A stretch of DNA of 64,000 nt from Puniceicoccaceae bacterium (lineage in GTDB: Bacteria; Verrucomicrobiota; Verrucomicrobiia; Opitutales; JAFGAQ01), in NCBI GenBank assembly GCA_028285755.1, contig JANQOQ010000008.1, positions 1,085,399-1,149,398 on the forward strand. Reading direction: 5' to 3'. This document shows, piece after piece, positions 1,677-34,328 of the stretch. The stretch's first letter is position 1; every line of letters starts with the position of its first letter. The position numbers were made by a program, and so were the translations under genes. The notes beneath the pieces are model-generated. The model did not search any database. It saw only the letters and a list, made by a program, of their open reading frames with translations, and was not told the DNA's origin.

Positions 1677-1711
1677 TAAAAAAACTCCCCGCATAATACG
1701 GGGAGTTTTTT
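1677..1711. terminator. Bidirectional rho-independent terminator
   Basis: A perfect 8-bp GC-rich stem (1684-1691 with 1699-1706, ACTCCCCG/CGGGGAGT) has a 7-base loop. It is flanked by an A-run on the left and a T-run on the right, so it can work on either strand. It lies between the end of the TonB receptor gene and the start of the sulfatase gene, both on the minus strand, and would end the receptor transcript. Confidence 0.88.
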
Positions 1712-1740: not shown

Positions 1741-4700
1741 TTAGAATGAGAAGGTATTCGTAATCTGCCAGCTGGTGCCAGGGCGAATACCCATTCTACC
1801 GAAGCTTCCGTCCGGATTCAGGTGCAGAGGCACGAGCTCATCATCTGCAAATGCGTTGAAGATGTTAAGCTGGACTCTCCAATCAATCTTATCCGTGAGC
1901 GGACGACGATAGCTCACCCAGAGGTCAATCGTGTTACGCGCATCATCCGCAAAACCACGGCTGATATCCACGTTTGTACTGCCATCTTCGTTTTCGCTGA
2001 TGCCGTAACCATAGATTTGGGCGTCCTCGTAGCGGTATGCACCACCAACTCCGAAACCATCAAACTTTCCTCCATTGAAGGAGTAATTAGTAATGATGTT
2101 TGCTTTCCATTCGCGGATTTCTGGCTGAGTAGAGCCATTCAATGCCTGTGCTTTGGTCAGCTCACCCAGGAATGGGTCTAACCATGTGCCAACACCCGGT
2201 CCGGCAAACCACCAGATGGGGATTTCACCCGCAGGGCCCTGCATTTCAGCAACGATGTATTCTACAACTGCGCCGAACTCATCACCCGGTAGGTTATCAC
2301 GAATTGCATCCGTTTGGGACACATTGATTGCAAGGTTCCAGTTGTCGGTCGGGTTACCCACGAACTCGAATTCCCAACCTTCAGAGATGGTGTCTTCTAC
2401 GATAGTCGCATTATCCGGGAAGAGGATTTGCGGAGCTGTTTGGTCTCCTGGCTGGAATTCAGATATGTACCAACCTTGGGTTAGCGGGAAATCCTCAAAG
2501 AGACCACGCTCAAACTCACGCCATGCGGGTGCCATTACCTGGCGACGGTAATCGGCTTCGTTGTCAAAACCAGCTGCTGCGGCAGATGGGCTGAGAGTCA
2601 ACCAAGGCGCTGTGTAATTCTGAGCGTCGGTTTCAATAAGACCTGCACGGAATGCACCTTGTTGCAATACTTGTTGCACACGGAATTTTTGGTTGTTCAC
2701 ACTGGCACTTGAGATCGCGTTCTTCACGATGGTCTCATACTTGGTTGCGCGGAATGACCACCTACCGTCTGCTGAAGTCAACATCACTGAGATATCTTCA
2801 TTGTCACCCGTTGCATTGGGCAGCGTGCGACCGAATACATCTACACGTGATGGATCGGGAGTTTGCACCTGACCTTCAGAATAAAGGACATGTATGTCGA
2901 ACGGCATACGACCACTCAAACCTGCCAGGTATGTAAGGTTTGCCTTAACTGACCAGTTGCGGCTCTCTACTTCGGTATCGCGTGAGTTGCGATCTGTTGC
3001 GAGGTTGAACGTAGGTCCGTCATCACGGTAATCGTGCTCATACCAGGTTTCAACCACTTCGTCGCGGCGCCATCCATACATACCGACGATTCCGCCATTC
3101 AACCAACGGCCTGTCCATACACCTGCGATAGAGTCTACATCTTCAGTGAAGAAGTTCTTGGTGGTCGTTAGGTATTCACGCTCGGCGTCACCTGCCAGTG
3201 CACTTACGAATGTATATTGTCCAACATCTCTCCAACCGACATAGTTTTCAGGATTGCGAGACTGGAAGTCACCGCCTTCCGCAGCATCAATACCGAACCA
3301 GCTGGTCCAGGGCACAGTTGCAGCCACTGCATCAAAGCCGGGGAGAGGGCGGGCATCAAATCCAAAGATATTTTGCAATCCATTCGGAATACTATTCAGA
3401 TCAGCTTGAATTTGGCTGATGCCCGTGTAATCGGCATTCGCATTCAAGTAGAAGTATGAATTGGGAGTGGGGTTTCCAAGATTTCGGCTATATTCTGCGA
3501 AACGGGATCCGGGTCCGGGAGTGCTAGCATCCGGCACGGATTCAGTTCGGTTAAACAAGTAGTCACGGCCTGCACCCGTCAAAGGGAAGTTGTCACGTTG
3601 CTGATCCAGCTTACGGTTTTGAACGATTCCCACGAGATCATGGCTACCCAGTAAACGACGCCAGAAAGAATTATCCTCTTTAGTGAAATCGTGACGCAGA
3701 AATGCCTGGAATCGCGCAGATTCGCGTTCCTGAGTTGAGATATTACCTGAAGCATTGTCTTCGCGTACTACAACTTCTCCGAAGCGGGGGTTAGGCACTC
3801 GATTGTTTCCAGTTGCTGTGCGATCAAGAGCGCCCACATCTACGGTAATACCGGGCGTGAAAACGTTACCCAGAATGGAGTAGAAAGCAGTATCATATTC
3901 TTGCTTAAAGTAGCCTGCATTGTAACCAACCTTATTATCGAAGAATGTGTGATTGATTTCCAGCTCGTAGATATCGAAATCCTTATACTCACGCTTGCCA
4001 TCTCCATCAATCAGATTGTTGAAGAAATCGAAGTAAGTGGTATCTGTAAAAGATGAGTCCTGCCAGAAACCTGCAAAGGGGAGTGCCAGATCCGTAGCTG
4101 CCCGTTGCTTACCATTGATGGTATGCTGTATTGGGTGTGGGATGTGGCGCTCGATGCTTGTTCCGTCACTGGATGCACGTCCATCATTGAATATGGCTGC
4201 TGTAACACCGTCATCAAATAGATCTTCTGTGTAGAACCAACCCAGGCGATCCAAACTGTTCTTTTCAGTAATAAGGTCTAAAGTGCCATCTGCATTGTAG
4301 AGGTAGAGCGGCTCTGGCCCATCAAAGGTAGATGCCAGCCAAGGATTAAATCCTTCATTACCCGTAGTTTGGATACCGTCTTGGACAAACTGATCAAAGG
4401 CTCCGCGGTTCCAACCAAAGTTGCCGATATTTCTAAAATCAACACCGCTGACATTTGTGCCGTCACCAAAACCACTTTCGCTCGTTGGCATTAACCAGGG
4501 TGTCAAGCGATCAGTGGGCGCAATATTACGCGGACGATTGGACTCGATAGAACCGGTTTCAAAACTTCCCTTGAGCTGGAAATTAGATGAATCGGTATTC
4601 AGGAAATCAGGCTGCCAGGTGAATGTAACAAATGTACGTTCACGGTCCTCAAATGCAGGGTCCTGCTGGTATTGGCGGTCTTCATTCAAAATTGCAACGC

Positions 4701-5793
4701 GCACAGCTAGCTGATCTTCGATGATTTCGGCATTATAGTCACCTACCAGGCGATAGCTGCCAAATTCATCAAAGCGCACCTGAACTTCGCCGCGTGTATC
4801 AAATTCAGCTTCAATTTTAGTCGCATTAATGATACCTGCCGGGCTACCCAGACCGAAGAGTACAGAGTTCGCTCCGCGTTGGATATCCACACGACGAATG
4901 ATATAACCGTCCCAGGGAACGTCCGTTCGATAGTAGTTAAGTGTATTGTCTGCGCGTGTAAGACCCCGTACCCGTGTATTCAGGTGAGGCTGGTCCAAGT
5001 TGGCGGATTCAATTCCTTCACCGGTTGGATTTACGAAGTTACCCCGGAAACCACCCACTTCTGTATTTAAAGTGTAGGATAGTAAGGTTTCAGTATCGGT
5101 AGCTGCGATGTCTTCCATGAATTCCTCAGTGTAAACGGAAATCGCAGAACCAATTTCACTTAGGTCCGCCTTAATACGGGAACCTGCAAGTGAGCTGGTA
5201 GCAACATACCCGCTTTCTTCGGAAGACTGGATGATGAATGGAGACATATTGAATACGTTCTCCTCATCCGTAGCATCATCCTGAGCAGTTGCCGTAACAC
5301 TGGCTCCTGCGAACAACAGTGTACCAATACCCCGCATAAATCGATTTATGGGGTTATTATTTCTATTGTTTTGAGTTGTCATATTTTCGATAGTTTTTGG
5401 TTTATTATCAGATGTAGAACCATCTACCGAAATCGTGTGGCCGTTGGTTTGCAGTTGAGTGTTTTTTACCAACCAAATGCCCGAGACTTTCTCATGGATA
5501 ACCGTGAGATCCGTATTTTTAACCAACGCATTGAGGGCCTCTTCAGGAGTGAAGGTACCATTCAACGGATTGACTTTGACACCCCTCACTTCATCAACAG
5601 CGTAGATTATAGGCACGTCTATAACACTCATTAAGTATTGCAGGCTTGCCTCTGCGTCCGCAGATTCGGTGGTTACCTCGAACTTTTTAGATTCCGCTCC
5701 ATTATTACCGTTACCGACCGCCGCGTAGGCAGTGATTGGGGTATCAGTAATGAGGGTAAGCAGGGTAATGCTAACTAGCAAACGTGATAACAT
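1741..5793 (-). CDS. TonB-dependent outer-membrane receptor with N-terminal STN signalling domain
   Basis: This is an outer-membrane importer with a signalling extension. The start at 5793 gives a clean signal peptide (MLSRLL... to AYA). An upstream in-frame ATG at 5868 would add 25 polar residues before it, and neither has a clear ribosome site. Using the longer numbering, an STN domain covers about residues 58-125. A second Leu/Ala-rich, signal-like segment ending in ATAQ lies at about 174-196. The plug follows (about 225-350, with VDIQRGANSVLFGLGSPAG), then a beta-barrel ending in a terminal Phe. The divergent sigma/FecR pair at 6.1-7.8 kb is the expected partner of an STN receptor: ligand binding would be relayed through FecR to the sigma factor. 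The neighbouring sulfatase suggests a carbohydrate ligand, but that is inference. Confidence 0.93.
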   Translation of the reverse strand: MLSRLLVSITLLTLITDTPITAYAAVGNGNNGAESKKFEVTTESADAEASLQYLMSVIDVPIIYAVDEVRGVKVNPLNGTFTPEEALNALVKNTDLTVIHEKVSGIWLVKNTQLQTNGHTISVDGSTSDNKPKTIENMTTQNNRNNNPINRFMRGIGTLLFAGASVTATAQDDATDEENVFNMSPFIIQSSEESGYVATSSLAGSRIKADLSEIGSAISVYTEEFMEDIAATDTETLLSYTLNTEVGGFRGNFVNPTGEGIESANLDQPHLNTRVRGLTRADNTLNYYRTDVPWDGYIIRRVDIQRGANSVLFGLGSPAGIINATKIEAEFDTRGEVQVRFDEFGSYRLVGDYNAEIIEDQLAVRVAILNEDRQYQQDPAFEDRERTFVTFTWQPDFLNTDSSNFQLKGSFETGSIESNRPRNIAPTDRLTPWLMPTSESGFGDGTNVSGVDFRNIGNFGWNRGAFDQFVQDGIQTTGNEGFNPWLASTFDGPEPLYLYNADGTLDLITEKNSLDRLGWFYTEDLFDDGVTAAIFNDGRASSDGTSIERHIPHPIQHTINGKQRAATDLALPFAGFWQDSSFTDTTYFDFFNNLIDGDGKREYKDFDIYELEINHTFFDNKVGYNAGYFKQEYDTAFYSILGNVFTPGITVDVGALDRTATGNNRVPNPRFGEVVVREDNASGNISTQERESARFQAFLRHDFTKEDNSFWRRLLGSHDLVGIVQNRKLDQQRDNFPLTGAGRDYLFNRTESVPDASTPGPGSRFAEYSRNLGNPTPNSYFYLNANADYTGISQIQADLNSIPNGLQNIFGFDARPLPGFDAVAATVPWTSWFGIDAAEGGDFQSRNPENYVGWRDVGQYTFVSALAGDAEREYLTTTKNFFTEDVDSIAGVWTGRWLNGGIVGMYGWRRDEVVETWYEHDYRDDGPTFNLATDRNSRDTEVESRNWSVKANLTYLAGLSGRMPFDIHVLYSEGQVQTPDPSRVDVFGRTLPNATGDNEDISVMLTSADGRWSFRATKYETIVKNAISSASVNNQKFRVQQVLQQGAFRAGLIETDAQNYTAPWLTLSPSAAAAGFDNEADYRRQVMAPAWREFERGLFEDFPLTQGWYISEFQPGDQTAPQILFPDNATIVEDTISEGWEFEFVGNPTDNWNLAINVSQTDAIRDNLPGDEFGAVVEYIVAEMQGPAGEIPIWWFAGPGVGTWLDPFLGELTKAQALNGSTQPEIREWKANIITNYSFNGGKFDGFGVGGAYRYEDAQIYGYGISENEDGSTNVDISRGFADDARNTIDLWVSYRRPLTDKIDWRVQLNIFNAFADDELVPLHLNPDGSFGRMGIRPGTSWQITNTFSF

Positions 5794-5886
5794 TTCAGGA
5801 TTATTATCAGCATAATCATATTCTTTACGAATATTGAAGTCTAAAATAATATTCTGAGGGTTAGTCATGTTTAGGGTATTGGGTGT

Positions 5887-28084: not shown

Positions 28085-29170
28085 ATGAAAAAAGTAATCA
28101 CAGCCACAGAGGTTGAAGCATTATTGAAGCAGGGAAAGAGTGCTGAGAGTATTCGGCAAGGCTCGATATTAACACCGTCAGCGCAGGATATGCTGAAAGG
28201 AGTGAAAATTAACTCAGGACCTGTGAGAACTTCATCCAGCGTTGCAAGTGACGATCTCTTTGCGGAGCCGCAGATTCCCGATTATGAATTCAGCTGGACT
28301 CCCGCAAGCGACCCCAAGACCCGGGATGAGATCCGAGATTTTTATTACTCCAGCGAAATTACAGCTATCCGTGAGCGCATGGTGGATATTGGTGAGCGCA
28401 TGTGGGCCCGGGAATATACGGATGGTAACGGCGGTAATTTGACGGTTCGTGTTGGCGATAATTTGGTGCTTTGCACGCCCACACTGGTTTCCAAAGGATT
28501 CATGAAACCGGAGGGCATAGCTTTGATTGATTTGGAAGGCACCCAAATCGCAGGCCCTTTAAAGCGCACGAGTGAGGCAATGACCCACTTGGCAATCATG
28601 AAGCGCCAGCCCAAGGCCAAGGCGTGTTGCCACGCACACCCACCGCATGCGACTGCGTTTGCGGTTGCTAAGGTGCAACCCCCTACATGTCTCATTCCTG
28701 AGGCTGAGGTCTTTTTGGGACAGATTGGAATGGCTGAGTATCAAACTCCCGGAACACCCGCAAATGCGAGCGAAGTGGGAGCTGCAGCGATCGAGCACAT
28801 GTCCGTACTTATGCTCAACCACGGGGTAATTTGTTGGGGCAAGGATATTGAAGATGCTTACTGGAAAATGGAAAATACCGAGGCGTATTGTAAAACGGTT
28901 TGGGTGGCTTCGATGTTGGGCAAAGAGCTGACACCGATCACCGGTGGGCAGGCCAAGGAGCTCATAGAGTTACGCAAAACGCTCGGTATGGAGGACAAGC
29001 GAGAAAACTGGAAGGAGTGTGAGCTCTGCGACAATTCAGAGTTTCAACCCGGTTTCTTTGCTCAGGGCAGTGCCTGTGCCACACCCTCGAATGCGAATAA
29101 AAAGGAGGATGCGGAGTCCGCTATTCAGGCAATCACTGAAGAAATTTATAATCAACTGGCAGGAAAATAA
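28085..29170 (+). CDS. Class II aldolase (fuculose-/rhamnulose-1-phosphate aldolase-like, BMC cargo)
   Basis: This zinc aldolase of 361 residues should split L-fuculose-1-P or L-rhamnulose-1-P into DHAP and L-lactaldehyde, the first step inside the compartment. The adducin/FucA fold is clear in the middle: NGGNLTVRVGDN, the zinc-binding CCHAHPPHATAFAV, and MLNHGVICWG. It is longer than FucA (about 215 residues). An ~85-residue N-terminal part begins with an amphipathic helix (ATEVEALLKQGKSAESIRQG), and a C-terminal tail ends in SAIQAITEEIYNQLAG. Either end could be a targeting peptide. No sugar isomerase or kinase is in the window. Confidence 0.92.
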   Translation: MKKVITATEVEALLKQGKSAESIRQGSILTPSAQDMLKGVKINSGPVRTSSSVASDDLFAEPQIPDYEFSWTPASDPKTRDEIRDFYYSSEITAIRERMVDIGERMWAREYTDGNGGNLTVRVGDNLVLCTPTLVSKGFMKPEGIALIDLEGTQIAGPLKRTSEAMTHLAIMKRQPKAKACCHAHPPHATAFAVAKVQPPTCLIPEAEVFLGQIGMAEYQTPGTPANASEVGAAAIEHMSVLMLNHGVICWGKDIEDAYWKMENTEAYCKTVWVASMLGKELTPITGGQAKELIELRKTLGMEDKRENWKECELCDNSEFQPGFFAQGSACATPSNANKKEDAESAIQAITEEIYNQLAGK

Positions 29171-29173
29171 GGC

Positions 29174-30097
29174 ATGAAAGTTACCATAATAGGAGGAGGG
29201 GGCCGAGTTGGTTCCAATGCGGCATTTGCCCTGCAGTGCGCAGGTCTCGTTTCCGAGATTCAGATTCTGGATGCGAATCAGGATATGGCCGAGGGTGAGG
29301 CTCTGGATCTTTTGCATGGAGCGTCGGTGCTGGGAGATCAACGCATCTACGCCGGGGACTATGACCGCGCGAAGGATACCAACGTATTTGTCATCACAGC
29401 TGGATTACGACGTAAGCCGGATGAATCGCGCCTGGATCTGATCAACCGAAACGTCTCACTCTTTAAGACTATTTTGCAAAGCATCCAGAGTGCAGGGTAT
29501 AAAAAGTGTGCTCAGTTTTTTGTGGTTTCAAATCCGGTGGATATTCTGACGCATCTTGCTGCATCTACACTCGATGTAGATCCTTCGCAGGTTTATGGCC
29601 TGGGTACGATGCTTGATACTGCGCGCTTTCGTTCACTAATTGCGGATGAGCTTAAACTCCCTACTTCACAGGTTAAGGCGCTTATTCTCGGTGAACACGG
29701 AGATACCATGGTGCCCATCTGGAGTAGTGCGACCGCTGCAGGACTGCCTCTCAAGGGCTATCCTGGAGTCAGCCCAAATTTTGAAAACGCAACCTTTAAG
29801 CGCACTCAGGGAAGCGGTGCCGAGGTAATACGCCGTAAGGGCGGAGCCGGCTGGGCCGTAGGGGCAACGATTGCTGAAACGGTACACTCAGTGCTATTAG
29901 ATAAAAAGCAGGTATTACCGGTTTCCAGTGTGCAAAAGGGATGTTACGGCATCCGGGATATCAGTTTGAGTGTGCCTACGATCGTGGGTAAAGGCGGTAT
30001 CGAAGGGCATATTGAGATCGAGCTATGGCCGAAAGAACGTCAGGGGCTTGTGAACTCAGCCAATACGCTCAAAGAGACTTTCGCGAAGGTCATCTAG
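29174..30097 (+). CDS. NAD-dependent malate/lactate dehydrogenase family protein (malate-type specificity Arg)
   Basis: This 307-residue 2-hydroxyacid dehydrogenase starts directly with the NAD-binding strand MKVTIIGGGGRVGSN; Asp33 favours NAD over NADP. Catalytic residues are visible: R86, D148/R151 in LDTARFR, and H175 in GEHGDT. In the specificity loop TAGLRRKPDESR, R80 sits where LDHs have Gln and malate dehydrogenases have Arg, so oxaloacetate/malate is the more likely pair. It starts 3 bases after the aldolase gene. No alcohol dehydrogenase is in the operon, so this enzyme is the obvious candidate for regenerating NAD+. No terminal encapsulation peptide is evident. Confidence 0.9.
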   Translation: MKVTIIGGGGRVGSNAAFALQCAGLVSEIQILDANQDMAEGEALDLLHGASVLGDQRIYAGDYDRAKDTNVFVITAGLRRKPDESRLDLINRNVSLFKTILQSIQSAGYKKCAQFFVVSNPVDILTHLAASTLDVDPSQVYGLGTMLDTARFRSLIADELKLPTSQVKALILGEHGDTMVPIWSSATAAGLPLKGYPGVSPNFENATFKRTQGSGAEVIRRKGGAGWAVGATIAETVHSVLLDKKQVLPVSSVQKGCYGIRDISLSVPTIVGKGGIEGHIEIELWPKERQGLVNSANTLKETFAKVI

Positions 30098-30137
30098 TGC
30101 GGTCATTGGGTTTCACTTGCCCATCAGAAATTTAAAA

Positions 30138-31640
30138 ATGCAAAGTGAAAAACAGATAGAAAATCCGGATGTTATCCTGGTTGGCAGTGGAATAATGTCT
30201 GCAACGCTTGGAGCAGTCTTGAAGGGTATGGATCCTTCATTGCGTATCCAGCTTTACGAGGTTGCGGAGAGCCTTTCACCAGAAGCCTCAGACGGTTGGC
30301 ACAACGCGGGCACGGGGCACGCAGGTTTATGTGAGCTTAGCTACACGCCGGATTATGGGGAAGATGGTGAGGTCAAAGTCGACAAGGCGATCGAGATATT
30401 CAACCAGTTTGAGCAGTCCCTGCAATTCTGGGGCTATGCCGTGCGCACCGGCATGATCGATGATGCGAAGGATTTTATTAATCCGGTGCCTCACCTGAGC
30501 TTTGTTTATGGGCAGGAGCAAGTGGACTTCCTGAAATCCCGCCACCGTCAGATGACCAAACACCATTTCTATAAAGAAATGGAATACACGGAGGATCGTG
30601 AAACGATCAAACAGTGGGCACCGCTTGTGCTCGAAGGCAGAAGCGATGAGCCCATTGCAATGACTCGCATGCCCCACGGCAGTGATGTGAATTTCGGTTC
30701 GTTGGCCGGCTTACTGGTTGAGTGGCTCGGTAAGCAGGAGGGCTGTGGATATGCAACGAGTCATCGAGTAACTGACTTGACGCGTGAAAACGGACAATGG
30801 ACAGCAGAAATCAAGGATTTGCAGCAGAAGCGCACCTTTATCAATCAGGCTAAATTTGTATTCATCGGAGCCGGGGGTGGGAGTTTGCCCTTGTTGCAGA
30901 AATCCGGAATCAAAGAGGCCAAGGGTTTTGGCGGGTTTCCCATAGGGGGACAGTGGTTGATCTCTGAGAAACCCGAGTTAATAGAGCAACACAATGCCAA
31001 GGTCTACGGGATGTCTCCGGGCGCGGCGCCTACGATGGCGGTGCCCCACCTGGATACACGCATCATTGATGGGAAGAAGGCACTCCTCTTTGGGCCCTAT
31101 GCGGCCTGGACGACGAAGTTCCTGCATGAAAAAGGCAGTATGTGGGACTTGCCGGGTTCTATCAAAGTGGATAACCTGGGCTCGCTCATCAAGGTTGGGC
31201 TACACAATATACCGCTGGTCCGATATCTGGTTCAGCAGGGCACACAGAGTATGGAAACCCGAATGAAGGAGCTGCGCAACTTTTATCCGGATGCCAAAAC
31301 GGAGGACTGGGATCTGATCGATGCAGGTATTCGCGTACAGGCGATCAAGAAAGAGGATGGAGATGCAGGTATTGTGCACTTCGGCACCGAGGTAGTTACT
31401 GATTCCGAGCGTACGATTTCCGCCTTATTGGGGGCTTCACCGGGAGCTTCGGTATCCACGAATATCATAGTTGAGATCGTCGAAAAGTGTTTTGCTGATA
31501 ACCTCAAGAACGAGGAAAATTATCAGCGTATGAAGGCGATGATTCCATCATTCGATGAAAACTTGGCCGATGCCAGCCTGGCTGATCGTCAGGCAACATT
31601 GAGTCAGGAGGCGATGCGTTCGCTGGGTTTGATCACTTAA
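30138..31640 (+). CDS. mqo: Malate:quinone oxidoreductase
   Basis: This membrane-associated FAD enzyme oxidises malate to oxaloacetate and reduces quinone. It has about 500 residues from the ATG at 30138; a TTG 21 bases upstream is possible but lacks a ribosome site. The FAD-binding GSGIMSATLGAVLKGMDP is at the start. Further family blocks are HNAGTGHAGLCELSYTP, GSDVNFGSLAG and FIGAGGGSLPLLQKSGI, and the length is normal. It follows the malate-type dehydrogenase by 40 bases on the same strand and is probably in the same transcript as the BMC genes. Its 3' end overlaps the convergent maturase gene by 8 bases. Confidence 0.95.
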   Translation: MQSEKQIENPDVILVGSGIMSATLGAVLKGMDPSLRIQLYEVAESLSPEASDGWHNAGTGHAGLCELSYTPDYGEDGEVKVDKAIEIFNQFEQSLQFWGYAVRTGMIDDAKDFINPVPHLSFVYGQEQVDFLKSRHRQMTKHHFYKEMEYTEDRETIKQWAPLVLEGRSDEPIAMTRMPHGSDVNFGSLAGLLVEWLGKQEGCGYATSHRVTDLTRENGQWTAEIKDLQQKRTFINQAKFVFIGAGGGSLPLLQKSGIKEAKGFGGFPIGGQWLISEKPELIEQHNAKVYGMSPGAAPTMAVPHLDTRIIDGKKALLFGPYAAWTTKFLHEKGSMWDLPGSIKVDNLGSLIKVGLHNIPLVRYLVQQGTQSMETRMKELRNFYPDAKTEDWDLIDAGIRVQAIKKEDGDAGIVHFGTEVVTDSERTISALLGASPGASVSTNIIVEIVEKCFADNLKNEENYQRMKAMIPSFDENLADASLADRQATLSQEAMRSLGLIT

Positions 31641-32865
31641 CGAGCTGCATTATGGCTGCGGGTGGCTGACCGCTTTTATAAAGTTCGGCCATTTTCTGCA
31701 TGTAGGGTGCGGTATGGGTGAAATAGTGGTAATAGCCTTCGCACAAATAATGGAGACCGGGATTGCCGTATTTATCCTTAATGAAGCGCTGTTTGGGGCA
31801 TCCTCCATTGCAAAGGGGTTTTACGGGGCATTCGATACACTGCTGGGGGAGCTTGGATTTCTTGTTTTCACCAAACTTCTTTTGGGCTGCGGATTCTACC
31901 AATTCAGTGAGATTGTCTTCGAGTATATTGCCAAGCTGATGGGTCGGGTATACGAAGTGATCGCAGGAGTAGAGTTTGCCATCGTGCTCAAGGGCGAGCG
32001 CGCGCCCACAGGTTTCTTCGAAGATGCAGAGCCCTCCGGGTTGGCCGATCCATTTTGCAAAGGTGACATCATTGATCTGGATGTAGATACGCCCGACATC
32101 CTTGCGCACCCAGCGATCAAATATCGATGTAAGAAAAGTGCCGTAGTCCCTGGGTTTCACCGACCACGGATAAACAGGGCTATCCGGATCATCGTCTTTC
32201 ATCATCTCGGGATCAACGGGCGATGCCAGATCAAGACCCAGATCCCGCGATGCCTGATTGGGTTTTCGCTCAACAATGGGTATGAACTGCATATGTTTCG
32301 AGCCGATGCCCTTGAGGAAGCGGTAAACCTCCTCACCCCGTGTGGAATTGGCCCTGTGGACACAGGTCAGGCTGTTCCACTCAACCTGATGCTTTTTAAG
32401 ATATTCGAGGCCGCGCATCACCTGGTCGTAGGAGCCCTTTTGGGTTTTGCCTACCCGATAGGCATCATGAAGTTTTTGGGGGCCATCTATACTCAGGCCG
32501 ATTAGAAAGTTATGTTCATGCAGGAGCTGGCCCCATTCATCATTCAGGAGGGTTCCATTGGTCTGAAATGCGTTATCAATGGTTTTGCCGTTTGCATACT
32601 GCTTTTGGAGGCTTACGACTTTGCGGAAAAAATCAACCCCCATCAGTGTAGGTTCTCCTCCCTGCCAAGCGAACGTGATCTGGTCAGTCGGTTGCGCTTC
32701 GATGTAGCCGCGAATGTAAGTCTCAAGTGTCTCCTCACTCATCTTGAAGCGCTCGCCTTTATCCCAAAGTTTTTCTTTCTCGAGATAGAAGCAATATTTG
32801 CAGTCCAAGTTGCAAATCGGACCAATAGGTTTGGTCATGATATGAAAGGGAGACGCTGCCTGCAT
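31633..32865 (-). CDS. Anaerobic sulfatase-maturating enzyme (radical SAM/SPASM)
   Basis: This enzyme converts the active-site Cys or Ser of sulfatases into formylglycine without oxygen. It has 410 residues, normal for anSME. The radical-SAM cluster motif is C18-NLD-C22-KY-C25. The SPASM cysteines follow in the C-terminal third (CGRALALEHDGKLYSCDHFVYP, then CIECPVKPLCNGGCPKQRF). AWQGGEPTLMG is the family SAM-binding block. It has its own promoter region and should serve the three sulfatases in this window and others. Its presence fits an organism that lives, at least at times, without oxygen. Confidence 0.95.
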   Translation of the reverse strand: MQAASPFHIMTKPIGPICNLDCKYCFYLEKEKLWDKGERFKMSEETLETYIRGYIEAQPTDQITFAWQGGEPTLMGVDFFRKVVSLQKQYANGKTIDNAFQTNGTLLNDEWGQLLHEHNFLIGLSIDGPQKLHDAYRVGKTQKGSYDQVMRGLEYLKKHQVEWNSLTCVHRANSTRGEEVYRFLKGIGSKHMQFIPIVERKPNQASRDLGLDLASPVDPEMMKDDDPDSPVYPWSVKPRDYGTFLTSIFDRWVRKDVGRIYIQINDVTFAKWIGQPGGLCIFEETCGRALALEHDGKLYSCDHFVYPTHQLGNILEDNLTELVESAAQKKFGENKKSKLPQQCIECPVKPLCNGGCPKQRFIKDKYGNPGLHYLCEGYYHYFTHTAPYMQKMAELYKSGQPPAAIMQLVK

Positions 32866-33002
32866 ATTTTAAAGCTGTAGTATTAAGGAAGTTTTGAAAA
32901 TGATATTCGAATGAATCTGACTTCCCTGTTTTGGATAACTAATCGATAGGATAAGAAATAGTAATTCATTGAAAATATATCATAAATTATGCTAATTTTT
33001 AG

Positions 33003-33312
33003 TTGATTTTAATAAGTTTACATTATAGCAATGGATTTATGATAAAAACTGCCCCTCAGTTCTGTGTAACAATATTTTCCTTTGGGGCACGATGTGAATT
33101 TGTTTGGCAATCAGCCAAAAGAGTTAGTTTGGGAGCGATGTTTGCTGACCTCCCTTTTGTAAGTAGGTAGTAATAAGTATAGTCGTATGAAACAGATGCA
33201 GACATATTCGAAGTTAATTTGGATTCGAACATGATCCGCTAATCCGTTTCAGCGACAATGTGTGGTATGGACATAAGTTCGGCAGGATTAAAACCCTGCC
33301 GAACTTTTTTTT
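33003..33312 (+). ncRNA. Candidate structured RNA (sRNA or leader) ending in a strong terminator
   Basis: The 482-base gap between the divergent maturase and ThuA genes holds no convincing protein gene. A promoter-like TTGATT (33003) and TATAGC (33024) with a short 15-base spacer come first. Hairpins follow: GCCCC/GGGGC (33051/33084), TTTGGC/GCCAAA (33103-33119), and TGAAAC (33188) with GTTTCA (33246). A 12-bp perfect stem plus T-run ends the series on the plus strand. It could be a free small RNA or a transcription-attenuating leader of the ThuA gene 36 bases further on. I recognise no known RNA family. Confidence 0.35.
33275..33312 (+). terminator. Strong rho-independent terminator without an annotated upstream gene
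   Basis: A perfect 12-bp stem (33275-33286 with 33295-33306) has an 8-base loop and ends in eight T residues on the plus strand. The minus strand lacks a T-run, so it works for plus-strand transcripts. The only upstream plus-strand DNA before the divergent maturase is intergenic. Confidence 0.9.
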
Positions 33313-33347
33313 ATTGGTTTTTGTGTGTTACTTCCTAGCATTTAGGC

Positions 33348-34328
33348 ATGAAGAGCTATTTATTCCTGTTACCCTTATTATCGTTATTCTTAATTAGTTG
33401 CCAGTCCGGTTCTGAGACGGCGCAAGTGGATGCTCCCTATAAGGCACTGATTATCGACGGGCAAAATAATCATACGGTCTGGCCGAAATCGACGTTCATG
33501 ATGAAAGCCTACTTAGAGGAGACCGGCCTCTTCTCAGTAGACATTGCGCGCACAGTATTTACCTGGCGGGGCGCCAAGTGGTTACCCCATTATCCTCTGG
33601 AAGACGGTATTGAAAGACAGGACTTAGAGGAACCTATACCAGATCCCGGGTTTACCCCCAATTTCAGTGATTATGACGTGGTGATTTCCAATTTTGGCTG
33701 GAAGGCAGCCGATTGGCCGGAAGATACCCAACGCGCGCTTGAGGATTATATGAGTGCTGGGGGTGGGTTTATCACAGTGCATGCCGCGAATAATTCATTT
33801 CCGGAATGGCTTGAGTATAATAAGATGATTGGCCTCGGTGGCTGGGGGGGGCGCAATGAAAAAGATGGGCCTTATGTTTATTTTAATGATGAAGGTGAGG
33901 AAATCCGTGATATGACTCCGGGTCCAGGTGGCGGTCACGGCCCTCAGCATGAATTTCAAATCCAGATCCGCGACAAAGATCACCCGATCACACGCGGTAT
34001 GCCTGAGTTCTGGATGCATACCCAGGACGAGTGCTATGACAAACTACGGGGACCTGCTGAGAATATGACCATTATCGCGACTGCCTATTCATCTCCTGAA
34101 TTTAAAGGAACTGATCGACATGAGCCTGCACTCATGGTTTTAAACTACGGGGAGGGTCGTATCTTTCATACGATACTCGGGCATGAGGATTACTCATTTG
34201 AGGGAGTGGGCTTTATCGTTACTTTGCAGCGCGGAGCCGAATGGGCAGCAACAGGGGAGGTCACTCAGGAATTACCCGATGATTTCCCAACGGCAGACAA
34301 TCCGACCCATCGACCCTTTGATGGCTAA
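33348..34328 (+). CDS. ThuA-domain lipoprotein
   Basis: This 326-residue protein has a lipoprotein signal peptide with lipobox LISC, Cys18 being the lipidated residue. The body is the ThuA (trehalose-utilisation) fold, a glutamine-amidotransferase-like flavodoxin-type domain: IIDGQNNHTVWPKS at the start, VVISNFGWKAADWPE, GGGFITVHAANNSFPEW and GRIFHTILGHEDYS. ThuA-like proteins in these phyla are abundant and linked to sugar metabolism, but the reaction is not settled. It follows the strong terminator by 36 bases, so it could be controlled by that element. It converges with the lactonase gene with a 1-base gap. Confidence 0.88.
   Translation: MKSYLFLLPLLSLFLISCQSGSETAQVDAPYKALIIDGQNNHTVWPKSTFMMKAYLEETGLFSVDIARTVFTWRGAKWLPHYPLEDGIERQDLEEPIPDPGFTPNFSDYDVVISNFGWKAADWPEDTQRALEDYMSAGGGFITVHAANNSFPEWLEYNKMIGLGGWGGRNEKDGPYVYFNDEGEEIRDMTPGPGGGHGPQHEFQIQIRDKDHPITRGMPEFWMHTQDECYDKLRGPAENMTIIATAYSSPEFKGTDRHEPALMVLNYGEGRIFHTILGHEDYSFEGVGFIVTLQRGAEWAATGEVTQELPDDFPTADNPTHRPFDG

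Follow-up and report, generated by a model that had tools for sequence, protein, structure and literature searches.

Many small RNAs (sRNAs) are lineage-specific, and terminator-attenuation leaders carry a terminator directly upstream of a co-directional gene. Orphan terminators are an established means, alongside other criteria, of choosing sRNA candidates. In S. meliloti, where orphan terminators were used in this manner, 14 of the 18 selected gaps were detected experimentally, and all but one of the listed candidates were conserved in a relative (PMC2573895). In B. thetaiotaomicron, a set of 124 intergenic sRNAs was reduced to 49 once an intrinsic terminator was also required (PMC7366714). 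The same study describes GibS, an intergenic sRNA of B. thetaiotaomicron that begins with a long single-stranded 5' region, is made up of hairpins and a linear stretch followed by an intrinsic terminator, and is conserved within its genus (PMC7366714).

The present analysis concerns a gap of 482 bp within a stretch of 64,000 nucleotides (hereafter the window, meaning the whole stretch of DNA analysed). At about even confidence, we consider that this gap holds a lineage-specific plus-strand small-RNA gene acting in trans. Such an RNA would share with GibS its intergenic position and its succession of hairpins, linear stretch and intrinsic terminator; unlike GibS, it would lack a long single-stranded 5' beginning, no copy of it was found in the genomes searched here, and it is predicted from sequence. 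The missing copy in relatives also sets it apart from the candidates listed for S. meliloti. It resembles 6S RNA (RF00013) in being structured and non-coding, although the genome's 6S candidate lies elsewhere. Finally, the position of the terminator directly upstream of a co-directional gene recalls terminator-attenuation leaders, whereas the antiterminator is unsupported here and the arrangement is not conserved with the gene.

The terminator and its surroundings

The gap is bordered by a radical-SAM/SPASM protein gene (31633-32865, minus strand) and a ThuA-domain gene (33348-34328, plus strand), the start codon of the latter lying 35 nt past the T run of the terminator. The sequence-only reading, which had placed a divergent gene upstream and no protein gene before the terminator, was right on the first count and, as far as Pfam and codon usage show, on the second, no plus-strand gene being recognised in the gap. 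Pfam had no match at E<=5 to any of four frames within the gap (plus strand: 55, 45 and 26 aa; minus strand: 58 aa), and none at E<=1 to the two plus-strand frames of 263 and 122 aa that run antisense to the radical-SAM gene. A 43-aa ORF (33039-33170) scored -0.29 bits per codon in codon usage, which falls short of the 5th percentile among 288 genes (-0.26) and is close to the mean for out-of-frame reading (-0.21); it is without coding signal. A coding remnant was likewise considered and set aside, none being recognised in the gap by either approach, and a tRNA/tmRNA search found no such gene within the 64-kb window.

The 20 bases ahead of the ThuA start (33328-33347) contain no Shine-Dalgarno-like 4-mer. 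Among 279 crude gene starts in the 461-kb sample, 16% have such a 4-mer ahead of them, compared with 10% for a control stretch taken from farther upstream, and the use of Shine-Dalgarno sequences may be low in this genome, whose gene starts are uncurated.

The intrinsic terminator occupies 33275-33312 on the plus strand, where the predicted 12-bp perfect stem with eight T residues was confirmed. Its arms (33275-33286 and 33295-33306) form 12 perfect pairs, seven of them G-C, around an 8-nt loop; of the eight T of the run (33305-33312), two are inside the stem and six form the tail. The inner ten pairs have a probability >0.99 in the ensemble, and in its minus-strand form the stem extends to 14 bp. 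Dinucleotide shuffling, repeated ten times for the window and 500 times for the gap, never produced an inverted repeat of 12 bp with a loop of 3-10, and the score of 19 is the highest among the six strand-sites scoring at least 12 in the 64 kb. The terminator is therefore far above chance, and it serves no recognised gene.

The rarity of this situation was assessed in a sample comprising the window and 20 further stretches of the same genome (461,583 bases), in which hairpin-plus-T sites scoring at least 14 were sorted against crude, ORF-based gene calls. Of 34 such sites, 19 lie behind a same-strand stop codon (17-77 nt), nine inside genes and one at an edge, leaving five orphans, the other four of which were sorted after they had been seen. 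One (L103:13803-13828) lies directly behind a tRNA-Met gene, one (window 1682-1708) is the plus-strand mirror of a minus-strand terminator, and the remaining two (L103:18645 and L104:1700) have a broken T tail or a mismatched stem. As the orphan behind tRNA-Met ends a non-coding RNA gene, it provides the main argument for an RNA gene in the present gap; the rule rests on this one control, since such a terminator follows only one of the eight tRNA genes sampled. No separate terminator hairpin was noticed, by reading, in the 80 bases past the 6S candidate. The site at 1682-1708 has the look of a bidirectional terminator (12 pairs on the minus strand, 10 on the plus) behind the minus-strand gene at 1741-5868.

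Directly upstream of the structured block (GC 0.35-0.47) lies an AT-rich trough (32966-33045, GC 0.17), in which the radical-SAM gene on the minus strand and the candidate RNA on the plus strand are likely to share a divergent promoter region. The best plus-strand promoter-like site in it (TTTACA-N15-TATGAT, 33017-33043) has a predicted start at about 33050, where hairpin 1 begins; a start at about 33015 would follow from the best minus-strand site. These sites were scored with a hand-made, unsourced sigma70 matrix, and the best scores in 32901-33100 are no better than those of shuffles (51 of 200 as good for the plus strand and 45 of 200 for the minus). The geometry of the trough thus fits divergent promoters and proves nothing.

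Folding, strand preference and conservation

The terminator is preceded by three plus-strand hairpins and a longer one. Hairpin 1 (TGCCCC...GGGGCA, 33050-33089) has outer pair probabilities of 0.59-0.84, hairpin 2 (TTTGGC AATCA GCCAAA, 33103-33119) has pair probabilities of 0.65-0.999, and hairpin 3 (GGGAG...CTCCC, 33131-33154) is weak, with z -1.6 when folded alone and a pair probability of about 0.1 in the ensemble of 33050-33314. Hairpin 4 (33182-33256) is long and imperfect and is significant on both strands, its minus form (29 pairs, -33.4 kcal/mol, z -6.8) being better than its plus form (27 pairs, -24.6 kcal/mol, z -4.6). The several further hairpins noticed earlier from the letters alone are accordingly upheld for hairpin 4, whereas hairpins 1-3 are jointly at chance level (z -0.91; 41 of 200 shuffles fold as well).

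Taken as a whole, the plus strand of 33045-33314 has a better fold than any of 200 shuffles (z -3.65), and the longer stretch 33003-33314 gives z -2.6, with 2 of 100 shuffles as good. Once the terminator is removed, the plus-strand fold is ordinary (z -1.13), whereas the minus strand of the same stretches reaches z -6.8 with the terminator and z -5.2 without it. Windows of 81 nt were also scored along both strands of the 461 kb (step 9; 102,228 windows), with energies regression-corrected on dinucleotide counts; here the minus-strand window at 33176, which corresponds to hairpin 4, ranked second among distinct sites. G-U pairs, which have no counterpart on the opposite strand, were used as a further strand indicator: four of the five in hairpin 4 and the terminator stem form only on the minus strand and one on the plus (one-sided sign-test probability 0.19 for four of five), while all five in hairpins 1-3 form on the plus strand. 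The strand signal is thus strong in energy for hairpin 4 and inconsistent across the gap, and the one surprising feature of the locus is that hairpin 4 is energetically favoured on the minus strand.

Two other ideas about hairpin 4 were considered and rejected. It does not look like a member of a repeat family or the end of a mobile element, for its arm motif has two further occurrences in the genome, on two different contigs, against one match of the reversed control pattern. The strongest fold of the sample (L103:18534-18614, -36.7 kcal/mol) is a long inverted repeat just past the 3' end of a long, 1078-aa gene; for its different sequence and that position it was rejected as kin of hairpin 4. 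This repeat is possibly a mobile-element end or a terminator, and the gene beside it is helicase-like in look, by reading.

The genomes searched for relatives of the gap included, besides the genome itself, four of the same family and none of the same genus. A 478-nt DNA query gave nothing convincing in 51 other genomes, the best outside match being 25 bases long (E 0.002). The genome's 6S candidate, used as a positive control in the same kind of DNA search, was found in all four other same-family genomes (E 6e-8 to 2e-15) and in 2 of 47 same-order genomes; it is a generous control, 6S being a well-conserved RNA. Covariance models R1 and R2 (plus strand) and R3 (minus strand), each built from one sequence entered twice and of limited reach, were run, own genome included, against 52 and 372 genomes (R1), 52 genomes (R2), and 34 and 372 genomes (R3), with stricter filters in the large runs, and returned no credible homologue in up to 371 other genomes. 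An R1 match in G072 (24 bits, E 0.02) was read and taken as chance. In the 34-genome run, R3 also matched G022 (29.2 and 21.9 bits) and G019 (23.1 bits) over short spans (63-91 of 141), which point to the long hairpin having been passed over in part; in the 372 genomes it matched no other genome at E<=0.1. The check for conserved structure in relatives, proposed together with the first description of the hairpins, was thus negative by DNA and covariance searches among genomes that included none of the same genus.

Known families gave a similar picture. Rfam 15 yielded no match at gathering score in the 64 kb and four sub-threshold matches at E<=5 over the gap, none of them credible. The locus is not 6S RNA, the one RF00013 match of the genome being elsewhere, at C3:290444-290618 (L097:1501-1675), where a likely 6S RNA scores 35.3 bits against a cut-off of 46.4. 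Plasmid and phage searches gave no match, and neither did the ThuA protein against viral_contigs.

Alternative explanations of the terminator

The alternative that survives best, although still improbable, is that the terminator belongs to no dedicated sRNA and is either an insulator, which stops read-through from the aldolase-mdh-mqo genes, or, at a rearrangement joint, a leftover of some plus-strand gene since lost. These three genes (plus strand, 28085-31640) are without their own terminator and run antisense into the convergent radical-SAM gene, which mqo overlaps by 8 bp. From mqo to the terminator in question, the plus strand has no site that scores 12 or higher. Furthermore, the radical-SAM and ThuA genes lie far apart or on different contigs in all seven genomes with strong matches to both proteins (ThuA E<=1e-70; G004, G010, G027, G031, G034, G048 and G049), and therefore the locus may be a lineage-specific joint. 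An insulator would nevertheless be displaced, as the 19 gene terminators found here stand 17-77 nt past the stop codon and not 1.6 kb; for a leftover, no decayed gene was recognised; and hairpin 4 goes unexplained in both cases.

Quite improbable, in turn, is a cis-acting attenuator, in which the gap would be the leader of the ThuA gene and its terminator would be switched by a signal. The sequence-only reading, undecided between a small RNA and an attenuator, had proposed this from TTTGGCA (33103-33109), which could pair with the right arm of the terminator and so permit antitermination control of ThuA. In favour of this idea, the ThuA start is 35 nt past the T run, and the sole listed promoter-like site between the two is a weak one (TTGGTT-N16-TAGCAT) that would give a leaderless message. 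The pairing can indeed form (eight pairs, -12.2 kcal/mol), and the right arm has three seven-base complements (G-U allowed) against 0.65 expected, with as many in 5% of shuffles, an excess that is a mild point in favour of attenuation. The duplex is not clearly above chance, however, as 51 of 500 shuffles give one as stable; TTTGGC is already paired with GCCAAA in hairpin 2; and in a fold without ligand or protein the terminator dominates the ensemble, leaving TTTGGCA and the right arm an equilibrium pairing probability <1e-8.

Comparative evidence also goes against antitermination control of ThuA. A comparable terminator was seen in the 500 bases before the ThuA match in none of the 37 relatives examined, a set of loci that leaves out the six weakest matches (L047-L052). 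Lesser hairpins, scoring 9-14 against 19 here, occur at seven of the 37: L074 (9), L035 and L082 (9, inside the gene; the same hairpin, probably from one genome), L085 (11, ending at the match start), L092 (9, inside the gene), and L089 (14) and L046 (13), both about 300 bases upstream. The covariance models matched none of 24 ThuA loci, and no Rfam family reached gathering score in the window. In genome_contigs, the six best ThuA relatives come from Verrucomicrobia/Opitutae MAGs at 68-70% identity, a collection from which the records nearest this genome may be absent. No paper on a ThuA leader was found in the open-access literature searched.

Slightly less probable still is a functional RNA on the minus strand, with hairpin 4 and the 14-bp stem forming part of a long radical-SAM 5' leader or of a minus-strand sRNA, and the plus-strand T run being a second use or a coincidence. 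The energy of hairpin 4 on that strand, its rank in the fold scan, the minus-strand z retained without the terminator and four of the five G-U pairs all point this way, whereas the sign test on those five pairs gives 0.19 and hairpins 1-3 point to the plus strand. In addition, the AT-rich trough separates hairpin 4 from the start of the radical-SAM gene, and a promoter giving a short leader would be more natural there; the only minus-strand terminator-like end noticed is hairpin 1 followed by GTTTTT, with a 6-bp outer stem; and no like hairpin stands out before the radical-SAM relatives when energies over 400 bases are compared. The least probable proposal is dual use, in which a plus-strand sRNA (hairpins 1-3 and the terminator) and a minus-strand RNA (the 14-bp and 29-pair hairpins) directed toward radical-SAM would overlap as antisense RNAs and regulate the two divergent genes, a proposal with which the mixed G-U pattern would be in keeping.

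The candidate plus-strand small RNA

Under the favoured reading of a plus-strand sRNA acting in trans, transcription would start in or just past the AT-rich trough, at about 33050, and would end at the intrinsic terminator, at about 33312. The predicted transcript (33050-33312, about 263 nt) has its 3' end set by the terminator, and its 5' end is a guess. It would open with a hairpin at its 5' end, go on through weaker hairpins to an unpaired linker, and carry the 75-nt imperfect hairpin ahead of the terminator. The candidate may act by base-pairing through the linker or the loops, and its terminator would also shield ThuA from sRNA transcription.

Between the two possibilities raised at the outset, the small RNA fares best on anatomy (an orphan terminator, an AT-rich trough upstream and no recognised ORF), while the attenuator is unsupported. 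The sRNA reading gains support because the terminator is far above chance, because of the orphan survey and the AT-rich block, and because the plus-strand fold is significant and coding signal is lacking. It is weakened because no credible homologue was found while the 6S control was recovered within the same family, because the promoter matches do no better than shuffles, and because the plus-strand fold without the terminator is ordinary when that of the minus strand is not, with hairpin 4 also better on the minus strand. On sequence grounds, the locus appears to be a reasonable, ordinary sRNA candidate, unconserved in the relatives searched.

Taken alone, this is one unconserved candidate with no target. 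The orphan-terminator approach, for which the control here is one tRNA, could be extended to list sRNA candidates genome-wide. As no study of small RNAs in this bacterial group was found in the open-access literature searched, an sRNA at this locus, if confirmed, would be a useful entry point for the group.
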